Assembly: GCF_029207735.1 (NCBI RefSeq)
Contig: NZ_CP104395.1
Span: 726,692 to 790,691, forward strand
Direction: 5' to 3'
Source of the DNA: Candidatus Nanohalococcus occultus
GTDB lineage: Archaea; Nanohalarchaeota; Nanosalinia; Nanosalinales; Nanosalinaceae
DNA: 64,000 bases
Shown here: one piece after another, positions 42,788 through 52,233 of the stretch
Layout: each line of letters opens with the position of its first letter
How positions within the stretch are numbered: position 1 is the stretch's first letter
The notes under the pieces: generated by a model
Seen by the model: the letters and a program-made list of their open reading frames with translations, nothing else
Database searches by the model: none
What the model was told of the DNA's origin: nothing
Made by a program: the position numbers and the translations under genes

Positions 42788-43447
42788 TTACTGTCGCTTG
42801 AAAAACTCATCAAGCTCGGATTTTTTCTCCTGAGGGCCGATCAAAATAATTTCATCCTCTCTTTCGAGCTGTACGTTCGACTCTCCAGACAAAGTGTTTT
42901 CTCCCTGTAGAACAGAGACTATCTGGAAACGTGAAGGAAATCTTTTCTCCGATTCCACTTCTTCAACCGTCATATCTTCTATACCCGAGTTACGTTCAAC
43001 GGATGCCTTCAAGATCTCCCTGTCATTCGATAAATTCGCTATCTTGACTAGGTAAGGATGTTCAACTGCCGATACGAACTCGCTGATAAGAAGATCCGTG
43101 TGACCGATTGTTTCTGCTCCAATAACCTGGAAAGCATCATAGTATTCATTGTCCTCTACTCTAGAGACTACTTTCGGCACCCCGTATTTTTTAGCAAGCG
43201 AGGAGACAACCATGTTCTCGTTGTCATCTTTACGTGCCGCAATAAGAACATCTGCTCGGTCTATGCCCGCATCCTCCAAGGCTGTAAGTGTTGAAGGCTT
43301 TTTGTTGATTACTGTTGCCGCGGAACTCGAGTAAAGCCGTTCACACCGGTCTTTGTCCTCATCTATCACTACGACGTCGTGATTCGATTCCAGAGATGAT
43401 ACCAGTCTTTTCGACAGCGTGTTGATGCCTGCGATCACTACATACAT
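42788..43447 (-). CDS. trkA: TrkA-type potassium uptake regulator
   Basis: 219 residues: RCK_N Rossmann domain (VVIAGINTLSKRLVSSL, then VVVIDEDKDRC and a second helix-strand set) and an RCK_C domain (about 140-215, FQIVSVLQGENTLS, EREDEIILIGPQ). The nucleotide loop reads AGINTLSK rather than GxGxxG, so nucleotide specificity may differ. It gates the TrkH channel subunit encoded just upstream; the start overlaps the trkH stop by 1 nt. Potassium uptake is central to the salt-in strategy. Confidence 0.92.
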   Translation of the reverse strand: MYVVIAGINTLSKRLVSSLESNHDVVVIDEDKDRCERLYSSSAATVINKKPSTLTALEDAGIDRADVLIAARKDDNENMVVSSLAKKYGVPKVVSRVEDNEYYDAFQVIGAETIGHTDLLISEFVSAVEHPYLVKIANLSNDREILKASVERNSGIEDMTVEEVESEKRFPSRFQIVSVLQGENTLSGESNVQLEREDEIILIGPQEKKSELDEFFKRQ

Positions 43448-44883
43448 TATTTTGAGTCTTTGAGCAGCTTGCTATTAAAGATTGCCAGCATCGGCAGCAT
43501 CTCCAGACGGCCGGCAAGCATCACCACAGACCAGAGAATCTTTGTAAACGGCGTCAAAGCTCTCAACTGCTCGCCTTCAAGGAAAAGAGGACCCATGTTC
43601 GAGGCAGCTGAAACACTGCCAGACATAGCCGCCATCAGAGATACATCCTCAGCAACCAATGTAAGCAGAGTCGATACGAACACAACCGCAATCCACGAGA
43701 AAAACAGCACGGAAATCGTACGAACCGTCGAGGACTCTAAAATCTCACCGTCGATTTTAACCTCGTTTATAGCGGTCTGCGGAAGATTATATGCTCTAAG
43801 CCGTGTTTTCAAAAGCTCAAACAACGTCTTTAAACGGAAAACCTTTACTCCTCCTGCCGTAGAACCAAGAGAACCTCCTACAAACATTGCCGCCACAATA
43901 ACAAGCTGTATGGCAGAAGAAAATGCCATAAACGACATGGTCGAATAACCCGTGGAGGAAACAACAGCTGCGGCCTGAAAGGCTCCGTCAAGAACCGAAT
44001 GTCCTATATTAGAGGTTTTCATCCAGAGTTCTAGCGACATTACTGCTGCAACCGCCAGAAAAATCTTGGTGTAAAGCCTGAACTCACTGCTCTTCCAGAG
44101 CGGAGAAAACTCCGAACGGAAAAACTTGTGTAAAAGCACGAAGTTAACGCCCCCTATAAACATGAACAGGACTGTAAAAGCCTCGAGTCCGGGAGAGTTA
44201 TAGGCTGCGATACTCGCACCCTCCGTTGAGAAACCCCCGGTTGAAATAGTGGAAAATCCATGTAGAAGTGATTCGAAAACCGATACGCGGAATGCTATGA
44301 AGGTACCTATTATCAAGGCAGTCATGAAACCGTAGACTTTCCAAAGTGCAGCCACAGACTTAGTTAACGACGGCCTTATCGACCCAGAATCAGTTTTATG
44401 AGCTTCTGCAGAGAAAAGCCGCCTTGATGCGCCACCAGACTCTCTCACCACTGCGATGAAGAACGTGAGTATTCCCAGACCGCCGATCCACTGCATGAAC
44501 GATCTCCAGAAAAGAACAGACTGCGGAAGCTTCGAAGGTTCGGCAACCATCGAAATCCCAGTGGTGGTGATACCGGCTGATGATTCGAATATAGCGTCGA
44601 TAACCGTCATGTAAGGTATGAACGGCATCGCTCCAATTATAGTCGCTAGGAACCATCCTAGAACAGTTGCGAGCATGGCTTCGCTGACTGATGGAGATCC
44701 CGCATCCGAATATAGTTTCAAAGCAGTCCCCATGATCAGTGCGGTTCCCGCAGAGGTTAGAAAGCCTATAGCAGCGACTTCTGGGCCTTGGTAGTATATG
44801 TTTACGAGAAGTGGCAGTAAAACTAAGGCTCCGAAAACCTGGAGGAAGCTTCCAACGAACCGGAGCATTACCTTACTTCTCAC
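43447..44883 (-). CDS. trkH: TrkH-type potassium transporter
   Basis: 478 residues from GTG 44883; a minus-strand TTTTATAT element (about 44908-44915) is about 27-30 nt upstream. ATG 44868 is the alternative, and the longer frame from 45036 runs into the eS6 promoter and is rejected. It has eight or more membrane helices and four pore-loop repeats with selectivity Gly residues: SSAGITTTGIS, STISTGGFST, VSSTGYSTM and SVSAASNMGP. Imports K+ with TrkA as regulator. Both genes form one transcription unit. Confidence 0.93.
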   Translation of the reverse strand: MRSKVMLRFVGSFLQVFGALVLLPLLVNIYYQGPEVAAIGFLTSAGTALIMGTALKLYSDAGSPSVSEAMLATVLGWFLATIIGAMPFIPYMTVIDAIFESSAGITTTGISMVAEPSKLPQSVLFWRSFMQWIGGLGILTFFIAVVRESGGASRRLFSAEAHKTDSGSIRPSLTKSVAALWKVYGFMTALIIGTFIAFRVSVFESLLHGFSTISTGGFSTEGASIAAYNSPGLEAFTVLFMFIGGVNFVLLHKFFRSEFSPLWKSSEFRLYTKIFLAVAAVMSLELWMKTSNIGHSVLDGAFQAAAVVSSTGYSTMSFMAFSSAIQLVIVAAMFVGGSLGSTAGGVKVFRLKTLFELLKTRLRAYNLPQTAINEVKIDGEILESSTVRTISVLFFSWIAVVFVSTLLTLVAEDVSLMAAMSGSVSAASNMGPLFLEGEQLRALTPFTKILWSVVMLAGRLEMLPMLAIFNSKLLKDSK

Positions 44884-44954
44884 AGTTTCTGAATTCGGTT
44901 GCTCGGAATATAAAATGAGGAAAAATCGGAGGCCTTTACAAAAAACTTCCCTAA

Positions 44955-44967
44955 CATTACAGTAATG
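44955..44967. promoter_or_regulatory. Palindrome in trkH-eS6 intergenic region
   Basis: CATTAC-A-GTAATG, a perfect inverted repeat between the divergent trkH and eS6 genes, followed by a smaller GCTC...GAGC pair (44967-44982). It has the size of a dimeric repressor site. No matching second copy was noticed in the window. Confidence 0.3.
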
Positions 44968-44997
44968 CTCGGGTAACTGAGCAAGGTGAATCAAATA

Positions 44998-45378
44998 ATG
45001 CAAATTACAATTGGAACTAACGACGGTAAGACACATCAGGTTGAACTAGAAGACGCTTCTCAGCTAGTAGGAAAGGAGATTGGAGAAACCTTCGAGGGCG
45101 GAATAGTTGATCTGAACGGCTACAAGCTGGAGATCACAGGCGGAAGCGACAAACAAGGCTTCCCTATGAGAGAGTCCATCGAAGGACCTGCCAGAAGAAG
45201 AGTACTAATCGAGGACGGATCCGGAATCAACGAGGAAGAAGACGGAGTCCGGAGAAGAAAATCCGTTCGAGGAAAACAGGTAAGCGAAGACATACAGCAG
45301 CTAAACACAACAGTAGCCGAAGAAGGAAGCAAATCCGTTGAAGAGCTTCTAAGCGACGAAGAAGAGGAAGAAGAGTAA
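44998..45378 (+). CDS. rps6e: Ribosomal protein eS6
   Basis: 126 residues from ATG 44998 (MQITIGTNDGKTHQVELED); the in-frame GTG at 44986 is less family-like. The core GKEIGETFEGGIVDLNGYKLEITGGSDKQGFPMR (only partly quoted: GGSDKQGFPM) is diagnostic. The C-terminal tail is an unusual run of acid residues ending in seven Glu/Asp. It opens the eS6-KOW-aIF2-gamma unit, the normal archaeal arrangement. Confidence 0.95.
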   Translation: MQITIGTNDGKTHQVELEDASQLVGKEIGETFEGGIVDLNGYKLEITGGSDKQGFPMRESIEGPARRRVLIEDGSGINEEEDGVRRRKSVRGKQVSEDIQQLNTTVAEEGSKSVEELLSDEEEEEE

Positions 45379-46869: not shown

Positions 46870-48381
46870 ATGGCCGATTTTCTGACAGCTATTCTAGGTT
46901 TGGAGCTAGCTAACGACGTTTTCACAAGAGTACTAGTATCTCTAATAATACTGGTTGTAGGACACCTGGGTGTCAGACTATCCAAGGTCCTCGCAAAAAA
47001 ACTATGGATCGCACCAAAGGAGTTCTCCAAGAAAGAAGTGGAGGACAGACTAGAGACCGTCCAGTACACAGGCTACATCCTCGATGCTGGAGTCATAACA
47101 GCCGCATTACTATACTTGAACAAAGGACTGACATCGAACCTTTCCTCAGATCTAGCGGATTCACTCCCGGAGCTGATGTCAGTTATACTGATAGGCGTTC
47201 TAGGATTCATAGCCATCAACCTATCCATTAAAGCAGGAAAGGAGTTTTTCGAAGCCATAGGAACAACAGCATACTTCAAAGAGATCGGGATGACCGAGAA
47301 CACACTTGATATAATCGCAGGAGCAGTCAAAGCATTCCTGTACCTGATCCTACTACAGATACTACTTAACCAGTTAAGCGTCGGAGATACCTTCATAGCA
47401 GAGCTTGTAACCGCTTCCTCATGGGCTTTCGCCTTGATGCTCGCAGCATTGCTTTTCTGGGGGCTTAAAGACCTGTTCACTAATACAGCGGCAGGACTTT
47501 ACCTCAAGAACTCGAGGATGGTCCGGCCCGGAGAAGAGGTCAAGCTCGGAGACGAGACCGGAGAGATCAAGAAAGTCTCACTTTTCTCCACGGAAGTCAC
47601 AACTGACAAAGGCTATACATTGTTGAAACCTAACAAGGCGATCATGGACTCGGAGATCCGGTTCAAGAGAACTAAAAACGACTTGGAGACTCTTGAAGAC
47701 ATCAAGTCCTACTTCGTTTCCCAGAGCGGAGAAGGATCGGGTCCAGCCGTAATGGAGATGGCACTGGATGTATTCGGATACCAGGCAAGTCAGGAACGGC
47801 TGGCGAAGGACGCAGAAGACCGTGAAAGCCTAATGCAGGCAGTTGAGAACGTAACTAACAACGAGGTGAAAACAGGCTACGTGGAAAAGGAAAAGATCAC
47901 CAAGCTCGGAGATGAGCTGAAAGCCTGGTTCAACGACGGTGCGCTCGTAGCAATCACATTGGACAAAGAAGAAGTTATTCCAGAAGGCGAAGGTCGTTAC
48001 ATACTCGGCATAGGAGTTGAGGAAAATGAAGTTCTTATAATCGATCCTTCAAGAAGTTCTGGAGGAGTCTACTTCATCGAGCAGTCAAATCTGATTGAAG
48101 CAATGACTGATGACGATGGATACACCGTTGTTGCTCCTAACGGAACCACTGCCTACTGGAGGATCAAAAAGGACTTGCTTTACAGCGATAAGACTTACTA
48201 CGATGAGCTTTCCAAAACCTTGGAAGCGCGGCTGAACAAGATGATCCGTCAGGGACGTATCATGAAACAGGTGATGCCTTCATCAGTCCGTGAGTACGTC
48301 GATGACTGGAGAAGCGGCAAGTACGCATCCAGAGTCTGGAAGCCAACAGGGGGAGAAAATGAAACTTCTGAAGACGAGTAA
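46870..48381 (+). CDS. MscS-type channel fused to inactivated C39-peptidase-like domain
   Basis: 503 residues. Four to five membrane helices cover 10-205. An MscS-type beta domain follows (NTAAGLYLKNSRMVRPGEEV to DSEIRFKR, about 205-267). Residues about 275-430 match the C39-like papain fold in order: GSGPAVMEMALDVFGYQAS (normally CGPA; here Ser290), a Leu-rich helix pair, GALVAITLD, RYILGIGVEENEVLIIDPS (normally H at the start of the strand; here Arg-Tyr), and a closing GYTVVAP strand. Both catalytic Cys and His are gone, so this is probably a peptide-binding sensor. First gene of the cassette; its 3' end overlaps the next gene by 23 nt. Confidence 0.75.
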   Translation: MADFLTAILGLELANDVFTRVLVSLIILVVGHLGVRLSKVLAKKLWIAPKEFSKKEVEDRLETVQYTGYILDAGVITAALLYLNKGLTSNLSSDLADSLPELMSVILIGVLGFIAINLSIKAGKEFFEAIGTTAYFKEIGMTENTLDIIAGAVKAFLYLILLQILLNQLSVGDTFIAELVTASSWAFALMLAALLFWGLKDLFTNTAAGLYLKNSRMVRPGEEVKLGDETGEIKKVSLFSTEVTTDKGYTLLKPNKAIMDSEIRFKRTKNDLETLEDIKSYFVSQSGEGSGPAVMEMALDVFGYQASQERLAKDAEDRESLMQAVENVTNNEVKTGYVEKEKITKLGDELKAWFNDGALVAITLDKEEVIPEGEGRYILGIGVEENEVLIIDPSRSSGGVYFIEQSNLIEAMTDDDGYTVVAPNGTTAYWRIKKDLLYSDKTYYDELSKTLEARLNKMIRQGRIMKQVMPSSVREYVDDWRSGKYASRVWKPTGGENETSEDE

Positions 48382-49150
48382 CGTCTCCGAGAAGCTCGAT
48401 GAGCATTTCGAGGAAGTCAGTGCTGTAGAGACCGAGGAGTTCTCACCAGAAGTAATTGACGGAGAGGCCGATGTAAGAGTCAACTCCGGGATCGAAGACT
48501 GTGAGTCCGCCTTTCTGAAGCTGCCGGAGCGAAACCCTATCTTCGGAAGAGTGCTGCTAGAGATACTTGAAGAGAAAGGAATAACCACGAATTATCCTTC
48601 TATCGGGTTCTACATCACCGCCAAGAAAAACTATCTTTACTACGTACTGGAGCAGAAAGACATTTCGATACCGGAAACAGTTATCGCTGCATCGGAGAAC
48701 TCGGCTAAAAACGTAACCCGTTACCTCGAGCTGCCGATAATTGCGAAGAGATACGAGGAAAACCAGCTGGAGGAATCGGCACGCCTAGAAGACGAACAGG
48801 AAGCCAAAGAGTTTGCGGAAGGAACCGATTACGGAGAAGACATACTAATCTTCCAGGAAGAGACCGGAGACGAAAAATACAAGGTCTTCTATGCGAACGG
48901 AAATCTAATATCTTTGAAAGACAAGACAGAGGGCTGGAGAGTCTCCGATGAGAAACTCCAGTATTCAAATCTGAGCAACGAACTCGAAGAACTTGTCGAA
49001 ACCACAATGAAATCCATCGGAACCGAGTACGGCGAAGTGATTCTCAAAGGCGGAAAGGTCATAGACGTCAAACCCAACCCGGACCCGGAAGTTTATGCCG
49101 ATAAATCCGGCAAAGACGCTTTCAAGTACATCAAGGAGATCTACCAATGA
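48359..49150 (+). CDS. Degenerate ATP-grasp-like protein
   Basis: 263 residues from ATG 48359, set by a GGGGGAG site just upstream; the frame open from 48290 is not used. The layout follows the ATP-grasp fold: a pre-domain, AKKNYLYYVLEQKDISIPETVIA (as in K-x-x-L-x-x-x-x-I-P-V-P-x-T, near 89), LPIIAKRYEENQLEESARL where the glycine loop should be, and VILKGGKVIDVKPNPDP where active enzymes have E-x-N. The nucleotide loop and metal ligands are largely lost. It may be a regulatory or substrate-presenting subunit of the intact ligase that follows with a 4-nt overlap. Confidence 0.65.
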   Translation: MKLLKTSNVSEKLDEHFEEVSAVETEEFSPEVIDGEADVRVNSGIEDCESAFLKLPERNPIFGRVLLEILEEKGITTNYPSIGFYITAKKNYLYYVLEQKDISIPETVIAASENSAKNVTRYLELPIIAKRYEENQLEESARLEDEQEAKEFAEGTDYGEDILIFQEETGDEKYKVFYANGNLISLKDKTEGWRVSDEKLQYSNLSNELEELVETTMKSIGTEYGEVILKGGKVIDVKPNPDPEVYADKSGKDAFKYIKEIYQ

Positions 49151-50031
49151 AAATGGGTATTGTTTACGGAGAAATATCGACCCAACACCAGCTGCTGATG
49201 GAACGGGCCGATGAGATATTCGAGACCGTTCTAGCAGTGCCTGTAGACAGCGTAGAGTTCGTTCACGGAGAGGAAACCCAGGTAATGTACCGAGGAACTG
49301 ATTTAACCACGTTTGATGCGATCTACATCCGTACCGGAGACCAAGACCAGTATTTCTCCGAGCATCTAAGCGAAGTTCTCAACGAGGCAGGGGTAATCAC
49401 TCAGGCAGAAAACGATACCTACTGCTATGAGGCCAACAAGTTCTACTCGATGAAAATACTGGCTGAAAACCATGTTAACGTACCTGACAGCGCTTACACG
49501 CTTTCACCGGAGACTGCCTTGGATGCGGCCGAGCGTCTCGGCTTCCCGATCATTTTGAAGACCGCGCAGGGAGCTGGCGGAGAAGGAGTCATGCGAGTAT
49601 CAAGCGAGTCAGAGCTACGTCCAATCATGGATGCGATGAGATCCTTCGAGCAAGACATTGTTCTCCAAGAATACATCGAACACGAGGGGACCGACAACCG
49701 AGTGATTGTAATAGACGACTATGTAACCGCTTATGCGCGTTCAAGCGGTAGCTCGGATGAATGGCGGTCGAACATTTCAAGCGGAGGAGAGCGGATTCAT
49801 GCCAACCTGACCGATGAGATGAAGGAAACTGCTTTGACCGCGGCAAGAGCCACCGGATTCGATATGTGCGGCTGTGATATCATTCAGAACGACGGAGAAG
49901 TATACGTCCTAGAGGTTAACGGAAGCTTCGGAATCAACGAGGAGATGAATGAGATAATAGGAGAAGACGTCATTCTCCGGATGGTCGAGCGGCTTCACGA
50001 GCTTGCTATGGAAAAACAGGTTCAGAGCTGA
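49147..50031 (+). CDS. RimK-like ATP-grasp ligase
   Basis: 294 residues with an intact ATP-grasp core: NKFYSMKILAENHVNVPDS near 97, FPIILKTAQGAGGEGVMRV near 135 (Lys plus glycine loop), DIVLQEYIE near 175, NRVIVIDDYVTAYARS, and the metal site CGCDIIQNDGEVYVLEVNGSFG near 250 with Asp and E-x-N. Enzymes of this group join an amino acid to a peptide or protein C-terminus or to a small acid, via an acyl phosphate. Co-translated with the degenerate paralogue upstream. It converges on a second ATP-grasp gene with 10 nt overlap. Confidence 0.85.
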   Translation: MKMGIVYGEISTQHQLLMERADEIFETVLAVPVDSVEFVHGEETQVMYRGTDLTTFDAIYIRTGDQDQYFSEHLSEVLNEAGVITQAENDTYCYEANKFYSMKILAENHVNVPDSAYTLSPETALDAAERLGFPIILKTAQGAGGEGVMRVSSESELRPIMDAMRSFEQDIVLQEYIEHEGTDNRVIVIDDYVTAYARSSGSSDEWRSNISSGGERIHANLTDEMKETALTAARATGFDMCGCDIIQNDGEVYVLEVNGSFGINEEMNEIIGEDVILRMVERLHELAMEKQVQS

Positions 50032-50957
50032 GCCATATCCACCAGCATCCTGATTACTTTCTCCATAACCGGCACCTTATGTTTTTCCGAGTCTTCATCG
50101 TCAAAGACCAGTCCTGGCTTCGAGCTTAACTCGATGATCCAGGGATTCATCTCGCTGTCAAACATGACATCCACAGAATACATTGTATGATCCAGCTCGG
50201 AGAATCCATTCGAGACCGTCTCAATTAGATCATGTACGGTTTCCGGGATCTCATCTACATCAACAAACTTTCTGGAGCCTCCCATCGATACGTTCGCAAG
50301 ATCACTTGCCTCATTAAGCCTGTAGTAACATGCCAGCGGCGCTCCATCGGCAATCATAACTCTGAAATCATGTGCGCCCTCAAAGTCAAAATGTGGTGTA
50401 CCTCCGGACGGATCAACGTATCTTTGAACCAGCAAGTTATCGGCAGGTTCGAACTCTTCGAGAGAGTCGATTAACCGAACCTCCATTCCTTCCGAGCCGA
50501 AACGCGGCTTTAAAATCGCTTTGCCATCTTTTTCCAAGACTTTTCGGACAGTTTCTTTATCTGCGAGCGCGGTCTCAGGTACGAACTCCGGGAAACTCTG
50601 GTAGGTCAAGAGCTTGTCCTTACAGACCTCTTCAAGCCCAAATGCGTTTAACATAGGAAGCTCGGACTGTATATTTTTCTTCAACTCGACAGTTGTCTCA
50701 TCGAACTTGAACTTATCGAAGACGACATCGAGTTCAATATCTTTCTTTCTCTCCCAATTTTCTCCGTTCCATTTGTAGGACTCTGAGAGCTTTCCATCGC
50801 TGTATTTTTTGTAGTTTGCCATGTATACCTCAGCGTTTTCATCGGCAGCTAACTCGGAGAAACGAGCGTAGCTACGGTTCCCATCATCCTTTTTCATCGG
50901 TTCATCGCCTTCATGGTCTATCTCATAGTCCCAGAGAACTCCAATACTGACAGTCAT
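50022..50957 (-). CDS. ATP-grasp family ligase, second type
   Basis: 311 residues. ATP-grasp motifs: CKDKLLTYQSFPEFVPETA near 112, KAILKPRFGSEGMEVRLI near 145, DNLLVQRYVDPSGGTPH near 172, HDFRVMIADGAPLACYYR near 192, and DVMFDSEMNPWIIELSSKPG near 263. The last metal site reads E-L-S rather than E-x-N but ends in a GshB-like S-x-P-G. The N-terminal domain starts VSIGVLWDYEIDHEGDEP. Divergent from the zincin gene over a 52-nt gap with one shared TATA element, so the two are probably controlled together. Confidence 0.82.
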   Translation of the reverse strand: MTVSIGVLWDYEIDHEGDEPMKKDDGNRSYARFSELAADENAEVYMANYKKYSDGKLSESYKWNGENWERKKDIELDVVFDKFKFDETTVELKKNIQSELPMLNAFGLEEVCKDKLLTYQSFPEFVPETALADKETVRKVLEKDGKAILKPRFGSEGMEVRLIDSLEEFEPADNLLVQRYVDPSGGTPHFDFEGAHDFRVMIADGAPLACYYRLNEASDLANVSMGGSRKFVDVDEIPETVHDLIETVSNGFSELDHTMYSVDVMFDSEMNPWIIELSSKPGLVFDDEDSEKHKVPVMEKVIRMLVDMAQL

Positions 50958-50976
50958 AAACCTAGTTTGTCACTGA

Positions 50977-50990
50977 GAGCTATAAGTTTG
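50977..50990. promoter_or_regulatory. Shared divergent TATA element
   Basis: AGCTATAAGTTTGG is about 27 nt from both start codons: the ATG at 51010 on the plus strand and the ATG at 50957 on the minus strand. Each strand reads a TATA-like core (CTATAAG, CTTATAG), linking the second ATP-grasp gene and the zincin gene. Confidence 0.55.
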
Positions 50991-51009
50991 GAGAGACAAA
51001 ACCATAGAC

Positions 51010-52233
51010 ATGAAAGTTCAGGGCCTTAGACAGCTGGAAAGTGTCGAAAATCCATCAATAGAGTTCGATGAAGAAAATCTTATCGAAGAGCTTTCCACAG
51101 CAGCCAAGATACTGAAAAACAAAGCATCCTGGACCAAAAACGTAGGAATAACTAACAAATACGAGGAAAAACAGCGTTTTCTAGAAGAATGGGATGGAAA
51201 ACCAGATTTCCAACCCGAATTCAAGTTTAAACAGATTAAATACGATAAAGAAAAGGTTCTGGACGTCCTCAATCAGTGTCAAGAGGCCGCAGGAAAAATC
51301 ACGGCAGAGGAACTCGAAAGATACGGCGCCGAGACACTGAATGAAAAAGACTTCCAAGAGTTTTTCACCCAGATTTTCGAACAGTTCACGCTTTTCATCG
51401 AACTTGGTGCGAATATAGAGAGCTTTGAAGACTGGCACGAGTTATGCGGACAGCTATGGACTATGCCTTCTGAAACCGAAGTTGAGAGATCAAAACAAGA
51501 GGTTAAATCAATTGAAAAAGAAGATCTTGAAGAGAAACTGACGGCAGACGATCTTAAACAGATGTTTGAAGCGGAATTTGAACGCCTAGGTATTGAATAC
51601 GAGGTTGAGATCAGAGATGTCGGAGGCTGTTTCAATATCCCAGAAGAACGGAAGCTGATTGTTGCCAGAGGGGACGGAGAGGAAAGAAAGTTCTCAAGAA
51701 AGGAAGCAGAGATGCTAACCGTACACGAGACCTTTCACTCAGTAAGAGCATACAACGGCTACATGGCCGGTGAGAAATCAGGTTTCCCGGATATACTTGG
51801 AGTTGACACCCCGTTCTACGATCAGACCGAAGAAGGCGGAGCGATCTACAGAGAGCATCGAACAGAAGCCAGCTACCCGAACCAGAGATTCGACTACCAC
51901 CTGAAACGTATAGTTGCCTACGAAATACACAACTGTGAGAACTACCAACAAGATTTCCAGAACATAGTGGAAACTGCCGTCGAGTACGGAGCAAGTCCGG
52001 CAAGAGCATTCACACTTGTAGCCCGTAACCGAGAAGTTTTACGCCATCAGATCTACCAGACCGGCTACGAAGAATGGGAGGACAAAGAAGAGATCTGGCC
52101 GCTTTTAATCGGGAAGATCAACCATGAGTGGGCAGAAAAGCTCAAAGACGAGGTTGAAGCCGGAGGAATGTTCCAGGAACCCTCCGTCAGCGAAGAACAG
52201 CTCTTCGAGTTCAGTTTTAAAGACCAGAACTAA
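51010..52233 (+). CDS. DUF1704/QEGLA-type zincin peptidase
   Basis: 407 residues. The metal site is LTVHETFHSVRAYNGY (HExxH near 238) followed by YDQTEEGGAIYREHR near 275, the counterpart of the T-Q-E-G-L-A motif that gives DUF1704 its QEGLA name. Length and motif spacing fit that family, which includes the human tubulin carboxypeptidase MATCAP. Such enzymes trim C-terminal residues, and bacterial members are linked to ATP-grasp ligases. The N-terminal 170 residues are helical and charged. Shares a promoter with the ATP-grasp gene at 50022-50957. A peptidase that reverses or matures the ligase product is the natural guess. Confidence 0.8.
   Translation: MKVQGLRQLESVENPSIEFDEENLIEELSTAAKILKNKASWTKNVGITNKYEEKQRFLEEWDGKPDFQPEFKFKQIKYDKEKVLDVLNQCQEAAGKITAEELERYGAETLNEKDFQEFFTQIFEQFTLFIELGANIESFEDWHELCGQLWTMPSETEVERSKQEVKSIEKEDLEEKLTADDLKQMFEAEFERLGIEYEVEIRDVGGCFNIPEERKLIVARGDGEERKFSRKEAEMLTVHETFHSVRAYNGYMAGEKSGFPDILGVDTPFYDQTEEGGAIYREHRTEASYPNQRFDYHLKRIVAYEIHNCENYQQDFQNIVETAVEYGASPARAFTLVARNREVLRHQIYQTGYEEWEDKEEIWPLLIGKINHEWAEKLKDEVEAGGMFQEPSVSEEQLFEFSFKDQN

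Follow-up and report, generated by a model that had tools for sequence, protein, structure and literature searches.

Five adjacent genes in a 64,000-nucleotide stretch of the Candidatus Nanohalococcus occultus genome (the window; its genome, G000, is a single contig of 948,351 bases) encode an MscS channel fused to a C39-like papain-fold domain (MscS-C39), a degenerate pseudo-ATP-grasp protein, a RimK-family ATP-grasp ligase, a second ATP-grasp protein and a DUF1704/MATCAP zincin (Table 1). We found that MscS-C39, pseudo-ATP-grasp and RimK form a conserved core with two optional additions, the second ATP-grasp and the zincin, and that the association of MscS-C39 with ATP-grasp genes is not confined to the Nanohalarchaeota, a phylum of very small, salt-loving archaea. 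On balance we lean towards a membrane-linked ligase/peptidase cycle, probably acting on glutamate tails or peptides and tied to a predicted tension-gated channel. A preliminary description of this DNA had proposed that the five genes form one system in which a ligase writes, a zincin trims and a channel with a dead peptidase domain senses the product. Comparative genomics backs the idea of one system, and this first reading was right in outline. Its central detail has to change: the dead peptidase is a derived state which describes the window lineage, not the system, the C39 domain being intact in most relatives.

A conserved core of three genes

The core was defined in 28 Nanohalarchaeota genomes. 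MscS-C39, pseudo-ATP-grasp and RimK are each present in the same 25 of them and are neighbours in the gene maps, with the triad split over two contigs in G007. The second ATP-grasp occurs in 10 phylum genomes and a locus zincin in 8, just a fragment on a separate contig in G011. The gene set expected from the window is thus kept in its first three members, whereas the last two come and go. All five open reading frames (ORFs), with the motifs and overlaps first described for them, were verified in the window: genes 1 and 2 overlap by 23 nucleotides (nt), genes 2 and 3 by 4 nt and the convergent genes 3 and 4 by 10 nt, while genes 4 and 5 diverge from a 52-nt gap which does hold a single TATAAG element, a candidate promoter. 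Gene starts overlap in most of the 25 genomes, the 23-nt overlap of the first two genes recurring in several genera, and this arrangement is consistent with translational coupling.

The association recurs beyond the phylum. A profile search with the C39 region added 12 archaeal genomes in which MscS-C39 has its complete architecture, and in 7 of the 11 that could be assessed (L159-L164, L168) the very next gene is RimK and/or pseudo-ATP-grasp. These seven genomes belong to five families and share no common flanks; a simple adjacency model gives such a pattern a probability of about 1e-5 or less by chance. Because the pair reappears outside the phylum with different flanks, functional linkage can be told apart from slow rearrangement. 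Searches of plasmids returned no MscS-C39 relative, the matches being generic RimK or AstE proteins.

Four of the proteins score above curated Pfam or NCBIfam cut-offs: MscS-C39 through its beta-domain, RimK, the second ATP-grasp and the zincin. Scanned alone, the pseudo-ATP-grasp and the C39-like domain fell below them. RimK scored 148.9 bits against TIGR00768 (RimK family alpha-L-glutamate ligase; NCBIfam cut-off 143.4). Its ATP/Mg residues are intact, Lys98, Lys138, Asp244, Glu256 and Asn258 are invariant in 16 aligned members, and the closest match among solved structures is E. coli RimK (4iwx/5zct, 1e-42). The pseudo-ATP-grasp is weak in a single-sequence scan (RimK 0.042, TIGR00768 2.3e-6); its family profile matches the RimK profile with 99.6% probability over the whole length and solved RimK at 3.5e-9, and the catalytic metal site is degenerate in all relatives. 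The second ATP-grasp is, by its sequence, similar to glutathione synthetase. In the window genome the near-invariant metal-binding Asn of its ExN motif is Ser (ELSSKPG vs ELNSKPG), which may weaken the enzyme there.

A channel-fused peptidase domain that died late

The window MscS-C39 protein consists of a transmembrane region and beta-domain (residues ~1-265, with ~4-5 hydrophobic segments N-terminal to the beta-domain), a C39/papain-like domain (~275-418) and a conserved C-terminal helical segment (~419-480). The beta-domain is clear (PF00924, 29.3 bits vs cut-off 20.2). The cytoplasmic alpha-beta vestibule domain of MscS is missing, and the C39 domain, with a predicted cytoplasmic location, comes straight after the beta-domain. 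No transglutaminase domain was matched in the protein, which has MscS and C39-like domains instead.

Scanned with Pfam, the window C39 region gave a sub-threshold C39 match. Its identity is settled by matches to PF13529 in relatives, over the cut-off in the first one scanned and present in 12 of 12 at a loose threshold, together with an AlphaFold2 model of the window's own domain (predicted local distance difference test score, pLDDT, 73; core 85-95). The model matches C39 and papain-like structures with E down to 4.9e-8, among them PCAT1, ComA, papain-like domains of contact-dependent inhibition (CDI) systems and, at about 1e-6, the phytochelatin synthase Alr0975. In place of the catalytic Gln-Cys-His-Asp the window domain carries Q-S-R-D (Cys to Ser, His to Arg, Asp kept) and is, to judge from these residues, catalytically dead.

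Of the 25 phylum members 15 have the full set of catalytic residues intact, as does each of the 12 full-length relatives outside. It has been lost in the other 10 phylum members (G000, the window genome, and G009, G011, G015, G016, G017, G023, G025, G026 and G027), where Ser, Ala, Asn, Gln or Thr replaces Cys and Glu often takes the place of the oxyanion Gln; His is usually lost also, G026 and G027 being the exceptions. When C39 status is mapped on a tree built from the remainder of the locus with aIF2-gamma and TrkH, at least four changes are required, and more if catalytic sites cannot be regained. As far as its sequences tell, the C39 domain died late and was not an ancestrally dead sensor. 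Mean identity over the C39 core is 45% among dead forms vs 67% among intact forms, with dead/intact values elsewhere of 38/33% (transmembrane region), 56/55% (beta-domain) and 61/62% (C-terminal segment). Since the drop is seen in the C39 region only, constraint has been relaxed on this domain alone, and the domain has not been deleted.

Loss of the active site goes together with a second peptidase at the locus. A locus zincin is present in 8 of 9 dead-C39 and 0 of 14 intact-C39 genomes (Fisher 1.8e-5, not corrected for relatedness), a count that leaves out G013 and G027 where contigs end at the locus; in the better assemblies the figures are 5 of 6 and 0 of 5 (p 0.015). On this sequence evidence peptidases appear to have been swapped. 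The zincin belongs to PF08014 (DUF1704/MATCAP; 34.9 bits, gathering cut-off 27), and the profile of its family finds the structure of human KIAA0895L at 1.5e-10. Six locus zincins form one clade in which HExxH replaces HExxxH, and that of G009 lies elsewhere in the tree; DUF1704 copies that are unlinked or from outside the phylum are mostly HExxxH.

The MscS-C39 proteins end in conserved acidic tails (...NETSEDE, ...LDEFTSSDE), considered as an acceptor motif for the ligase and rejected as a by-product of gene overlap. In the window (48340-48381) the tail and the start of the next gene (MKLLKTSN) are coded by the same bases, and conservation of the tail in other genomes fits the same overlap. 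As these bases are shared, the tail is no evidence of a substrate.

Retropepsin partners in other archaea

A PF05618 gene (the RimB/RloA retropepsin family) adjoins RimK at the MscS-C39/RimK locus of four genomes outside the phylum (G035, G057, G172, G189), and none was found in the 28 phylum genomes. A further three (G040, G062, G082) have an operon in the order retropepsin, degenerate ATP-grasp, RimK, DUF72 (identified in G040), DUF1704 zincin (HExxxH) and methionyl-tRNA synthetase, and G381 has zincin, RimK and pseudo-ATP-grasp beside a divergent retropepsin gene. A RimB-family partner was seen next to RimK in 8 of the archaeal loci examined. Among other archaea the trimming partner that matches best is a retropepsin of the RimB/RloA type, which ties the system to its bacterial counterparts more firmly than was first described. 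From these combinations the RimK pair emerges as the constant part of the system, to which C39-channel, retropepsin and DUF1704 are added as interchangeable or stackable peptidase parts. The group of retropepsin, degenerate ATP-grasp, RimK and DUF1704 in L213-L216 (DUF72 also in L213) has no channel, and we found no published description of it.

Relation to known systems

Ligase and peptidase pairs of this kind have a precedent. Iyer, Abhiman, Burroughs and Aravind in 2009 reportedly predicted RimK-linked amidoligase/peptidase neighbourhoods in which ATP-grasp or GS-fold ligases travel with peptidases of unrelated fold. The proposal that a ligase writes and a peptidase trims fits published relatives. 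Poly-alpha-glutamate is synthesised by RimK of Pseudomonas fluorescens; RimB takes poly-Glu off and has a stimulating effect on RimK (PMC11957791). In eukaryotes MATCAP/TMCP zincins, whose family motif is defined as HExxxH with EEG supplying the third ligand, remove polyglutamylation by shortening glutamate chains made by TTLL ligases (PMC10499314). The analogy first drawn with bacterial operons of a RimK-like ligase, an inactive transglutaminase and a peptidase was apt: the Rlo operon of Pseudomonas aeruginosa has just these parts, the transglutaminase membrane-bound and the peptidase a retropepsin, and RloA/B/C set hypo-osmotic tolerance. There, loss of the three peptidases blocks low-salt growth, and cells grow again once either the ligase or the papain-fold membrane protein is removed as well (PMC12239564).

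The archaeal system works like Rlo and RimK/RimB, but on the features tested it belongs to neither. It shares with Rlo a RimK-like ATP-grasp in an operon with a papain-superfamily membrane protein and a peptidase, and the RloB domain is inactive like the window C39. However, RloB has seven transmembrane segments and a periplasmic transglutaminase-type domain. Its archaeal counterpart is an MscS channel, and the C39-type domain of this channel is predicted to be cytoplasmic and keeps its active site in most relatives. The retropepsin RloA is secreted, whereas the window has a zincin, retropepsin occurring in other archaea alone; and the pseudo-ligase is extra. With RimK/RimB it has in common a RimK-family ligase opposed by a peptidase, including the eight loci with PF05618, and differs in the channel fusion, in the zincin standing in place of RimB in the window, and in the acceptor. 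To our knowledge bacterial ribosomal protein S6 is absent from archaea, so the RimK acceptor cannot be S6 here. The eukaryotic TTLL/TMCP writer/eraser pair uses the same two enzyme folds, and the window zincin is of the same family as MATCAP/TMCP (KIAA0895L, DUF1704), but it is prokaryotic, has HExxH and not HExxxH, and lacks a microtubule substrate. C39 peptidases (PCAT, ComA) and Alr0975 share the fold and, with MscS-C39 relatives, Gln-Cys-His-Asp; the differences are fusion to an MscS channel instead of an ATP-binding cassette (ABC) exporter and, in the window, loss of Cys and His.

Proposed mechanism and alternatives

In the cycle that we favour the RimK enzyme, judging from its family, would be an ATP-driven ligase that extends the C-terminus of an acceptor protein by amino acids, with alpha-linked L-glutamate the most likely, or that alternatively makes short poly-acidic peptides. 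The pseudo-ATP-grasp, whose gene overlaps suggest translational coupling, may serve as a non-catalytic partner or regulator of the ligase. In the architecture of MscS-C39 a mechanosensitive channel would carry a papain-fold peptidase on its cytoplasmic face, straight after the beta-domain, where the ancestral C39 may trim or read the ligase product and so couple it to membrane tension. In the window lineage the decayed domain has been kept, probably for binding, docking or sensing, and the correlation with the adjacent DUF1704/MATCAP zincin suggests that trimming was taken over by this enzyme. The second ATP-grasp would be an accessory ligase, its place being filled elsewhere by a GCS2-type ligase, a P-loop protein or an AstE-type deacylase. 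By analogy we infer the substrate and the osmotic role of the system: its likely physiological use is a response to hypo-osmotic shock, as indicated by the phenotype of Rlo and by the MscS nature of the channel, with the neighbouring TrkH/TrkA genes suggestive at most, since the whole block is syntenic inside the phylum. A narrower version, which we regard as doubtful though conceivable, has a cytoplasmic protease-domain cage on the channel through which tension directly controls cleavage of a ligase-made, poly-glutamate-like product, with the three unrelated folds of C39, retropepsin and DUF1704 interchanging as the eraser of a mechano-controlled polyglutamylation switch.

Several observations weigh against this reading. 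The zincin/C39 link comprises 3-4 independent pairs, all agreeing or neutral but too few to reach significance (sign test p 0.25-0.5), and G025, 99% complete, has a dead C39 and no zincin. Five outside MscS-C39 genes are not beside RimK, four having other neighbours (L165, L167, L169, L170) and one lying where its contig ends (L166). Of the folds first expected, the C39-like one was matched by its model, but that of the zincin (pLDDT 93.7) found nothing under E 0.001, its best Foldseek hits being weak (E 0.019; 3o0y, M32 carboxypeptidases), and its metal motif, HETFH with TEEGGA, is HExxH and not the family HExxxH. A separate zincin recruitment in family f5 was tested, and independence of the two recruitments was not established (approximately unbiased test p 0.188, common clade not rejected).

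The strongest competitor, which we nevertheless consider unlikely, is a metabolism of peptide osmolytes or counter-ions: the ligases would condense glutamate, the counter-ion of potassium, into free small peptides with no protein modified, the peptidases would release it again, and the channel would vent ions or peptide on down-shock. RimK does make free poly-alpha-glutamate in vitro and in vivo (PMC11957791), an MscS domain is present and TrkH/TrkA potassium uptake genes adjoin the locus across the phylum, yet TrkH and aIF2-gamma are syntenic inside the phylum alone and may be chance neighbours, and no such osmolyte is known in these archaea. A gamma-glutamyl or thiol pathway strikes us as improbable; here a glutathione-like peptide, made by ligases resembling GCS2 and glutathione synthetase, would be hydrolysed or transpeptidated by a phytochelatin-synthase-like C39. 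This pathway would account for the match to Alr0975, for the resemblance of the second ATP-grasp and for a GCS2 (YbdK-like) ligase at four loci; these are just 4 of 25, however, the GCS2 matches are far below NCBIfam cut-offs, and the C39 model matches C39 peptidases and CDI papain-like domains too.

That there is no functional link, the genes being part of a slowly rearranging block, has very little in its favour as an overall account. The flanking aIF2-gamma, TrkH, PIN and RpoE genes are indeed kept in nearly all phylum members, but the recurrence of the pair in five outside families with different flanks refutes the idea for the core triad, leaving it possible for the second ATP-grasp and the zincin. 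Least probable of all is maturation of a graspetide-like peptide, with ATP-grasp ligases cyclising a precursor and C39 removing its leader. Graspetide ATP-grasp loci are accompanied most often by C39 double-glycine peptidase/ABC-transporter fusions (PMC8939145), but here C39 is fused to a channel and the ligase is of the RimK subfamily. We rejected this reading as the 25 genomes show no conserved small (precursor) ORF at the locus.

RimK/RimB, Rlo and TTLL/TMCP are recently described writer/eraser pairs for glutamate chains, the Rlo target being not yet known. If the ligase/peptidase cycle is correct, its channel-fused archaeal version would be the clearest genetic link of this chemistry to membrane tension, and it would help explain the papain-fold membrane proteins that accompany bacterial RimK-type ligases. 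The locus also offers a natural experiment: a protease active site decays, and a different peptidase turns up at the same place. Within the literature covered, which is partial, we found no published description of the MscS-C39/RimK system.

Locus features and neighbouring genes

Table 1. Features of the cassette in the window, its neighbours and the GCS2-type ligases at other loci (prefixed by locus)
Feature	Position	Strand	Basis or remark
MscS-C39 gene	46870..48381	+	Pfam match, AlphaFold2 model, alignment of relatives
Pseudo-ATP-grasp gene	48359..49150	+	start inside MscS-C39 gene; RimK-like fold
RimK-family ATP-grasp ligase gene	49147..50031	+	catalytic residues intact
Second ATP-grasp gene, TTL / glutathione-synthetase / YheCD-like	50022..50957	-	optional module
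TATAAG element, candidate shared promoter	50976..50990	no strand	sequence inspection only
DUF1704/MATCAP (QEGLA) zincin gene	51010..52233	+	HExxH (HETFH) and EEG; optional module
TrkA/TrkH potassium-uptake genes, neighbours	42788..45036	-	syntenic across phylum; context only
GCS2/YbdK-like ligase	L105:9571-10602		RimK-PIN slot
GCS2/YbdK-like ligase	L106:7259-8290		RimK-PIN slot
GCS2/YbdK-like ligase	L111:7474-8481		RimK-PIN slot
GCS2/YbdK-like ligase	L120:5063-6121		RimK-PIN slot

The slot between RimK and the PIN gene otherwise holds one of three proteins. A GCS2/YbdK-like carboxylate-amine ligase is found in G008, G018, G019 and G024, all with intact C39. A P-loop protein occupies the slot in 10 phylum genomes; it is conserved, 340-370 amino acids (aa) long, with weak similarity to MobB and the motif MDAGKTT, and a structure search found no solved relative. 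Its loci are L097, L099, L101, L107, L108, L109, L115, L116, L117 and L118, plus L159, and it stands in for the second ATP-grasp where C39 is intact, L159 carrying both. An AstE/aspartoacylase-type protein lies in the slot region of G003, G005, G006, G007 and G009; in families f4 and f5 this DoeB-like protein is near the locus at L115:3706-4929, L116:4725-5753 and L121:4767-5858, and also in L117 and L118. In the same two families an additional, plain MscS gene separates the MscS-C39 block from TrkH (L115:11078-11935, L116:11835-12725, L121:14748-15671).

Unlinked DUF1704 copies occur in some phylum genomes, beside alanyl-tRNA synthetase in L122 and L225. Archaeal DUF1704 zincins away from the locus adjoin alanyl-tRNA synthetase (L122:5256-9350, L225:5930-10014) or methionyl-tRNA synthetase (L213:4097-6881). 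The flanking aIF2-gamma of G023 (L110:12426-15494) is 1022 aa long, compared with ~395 aa in relatives, and carries an intein (splicing domain and LAGLIDADG) in its GTPase domain.

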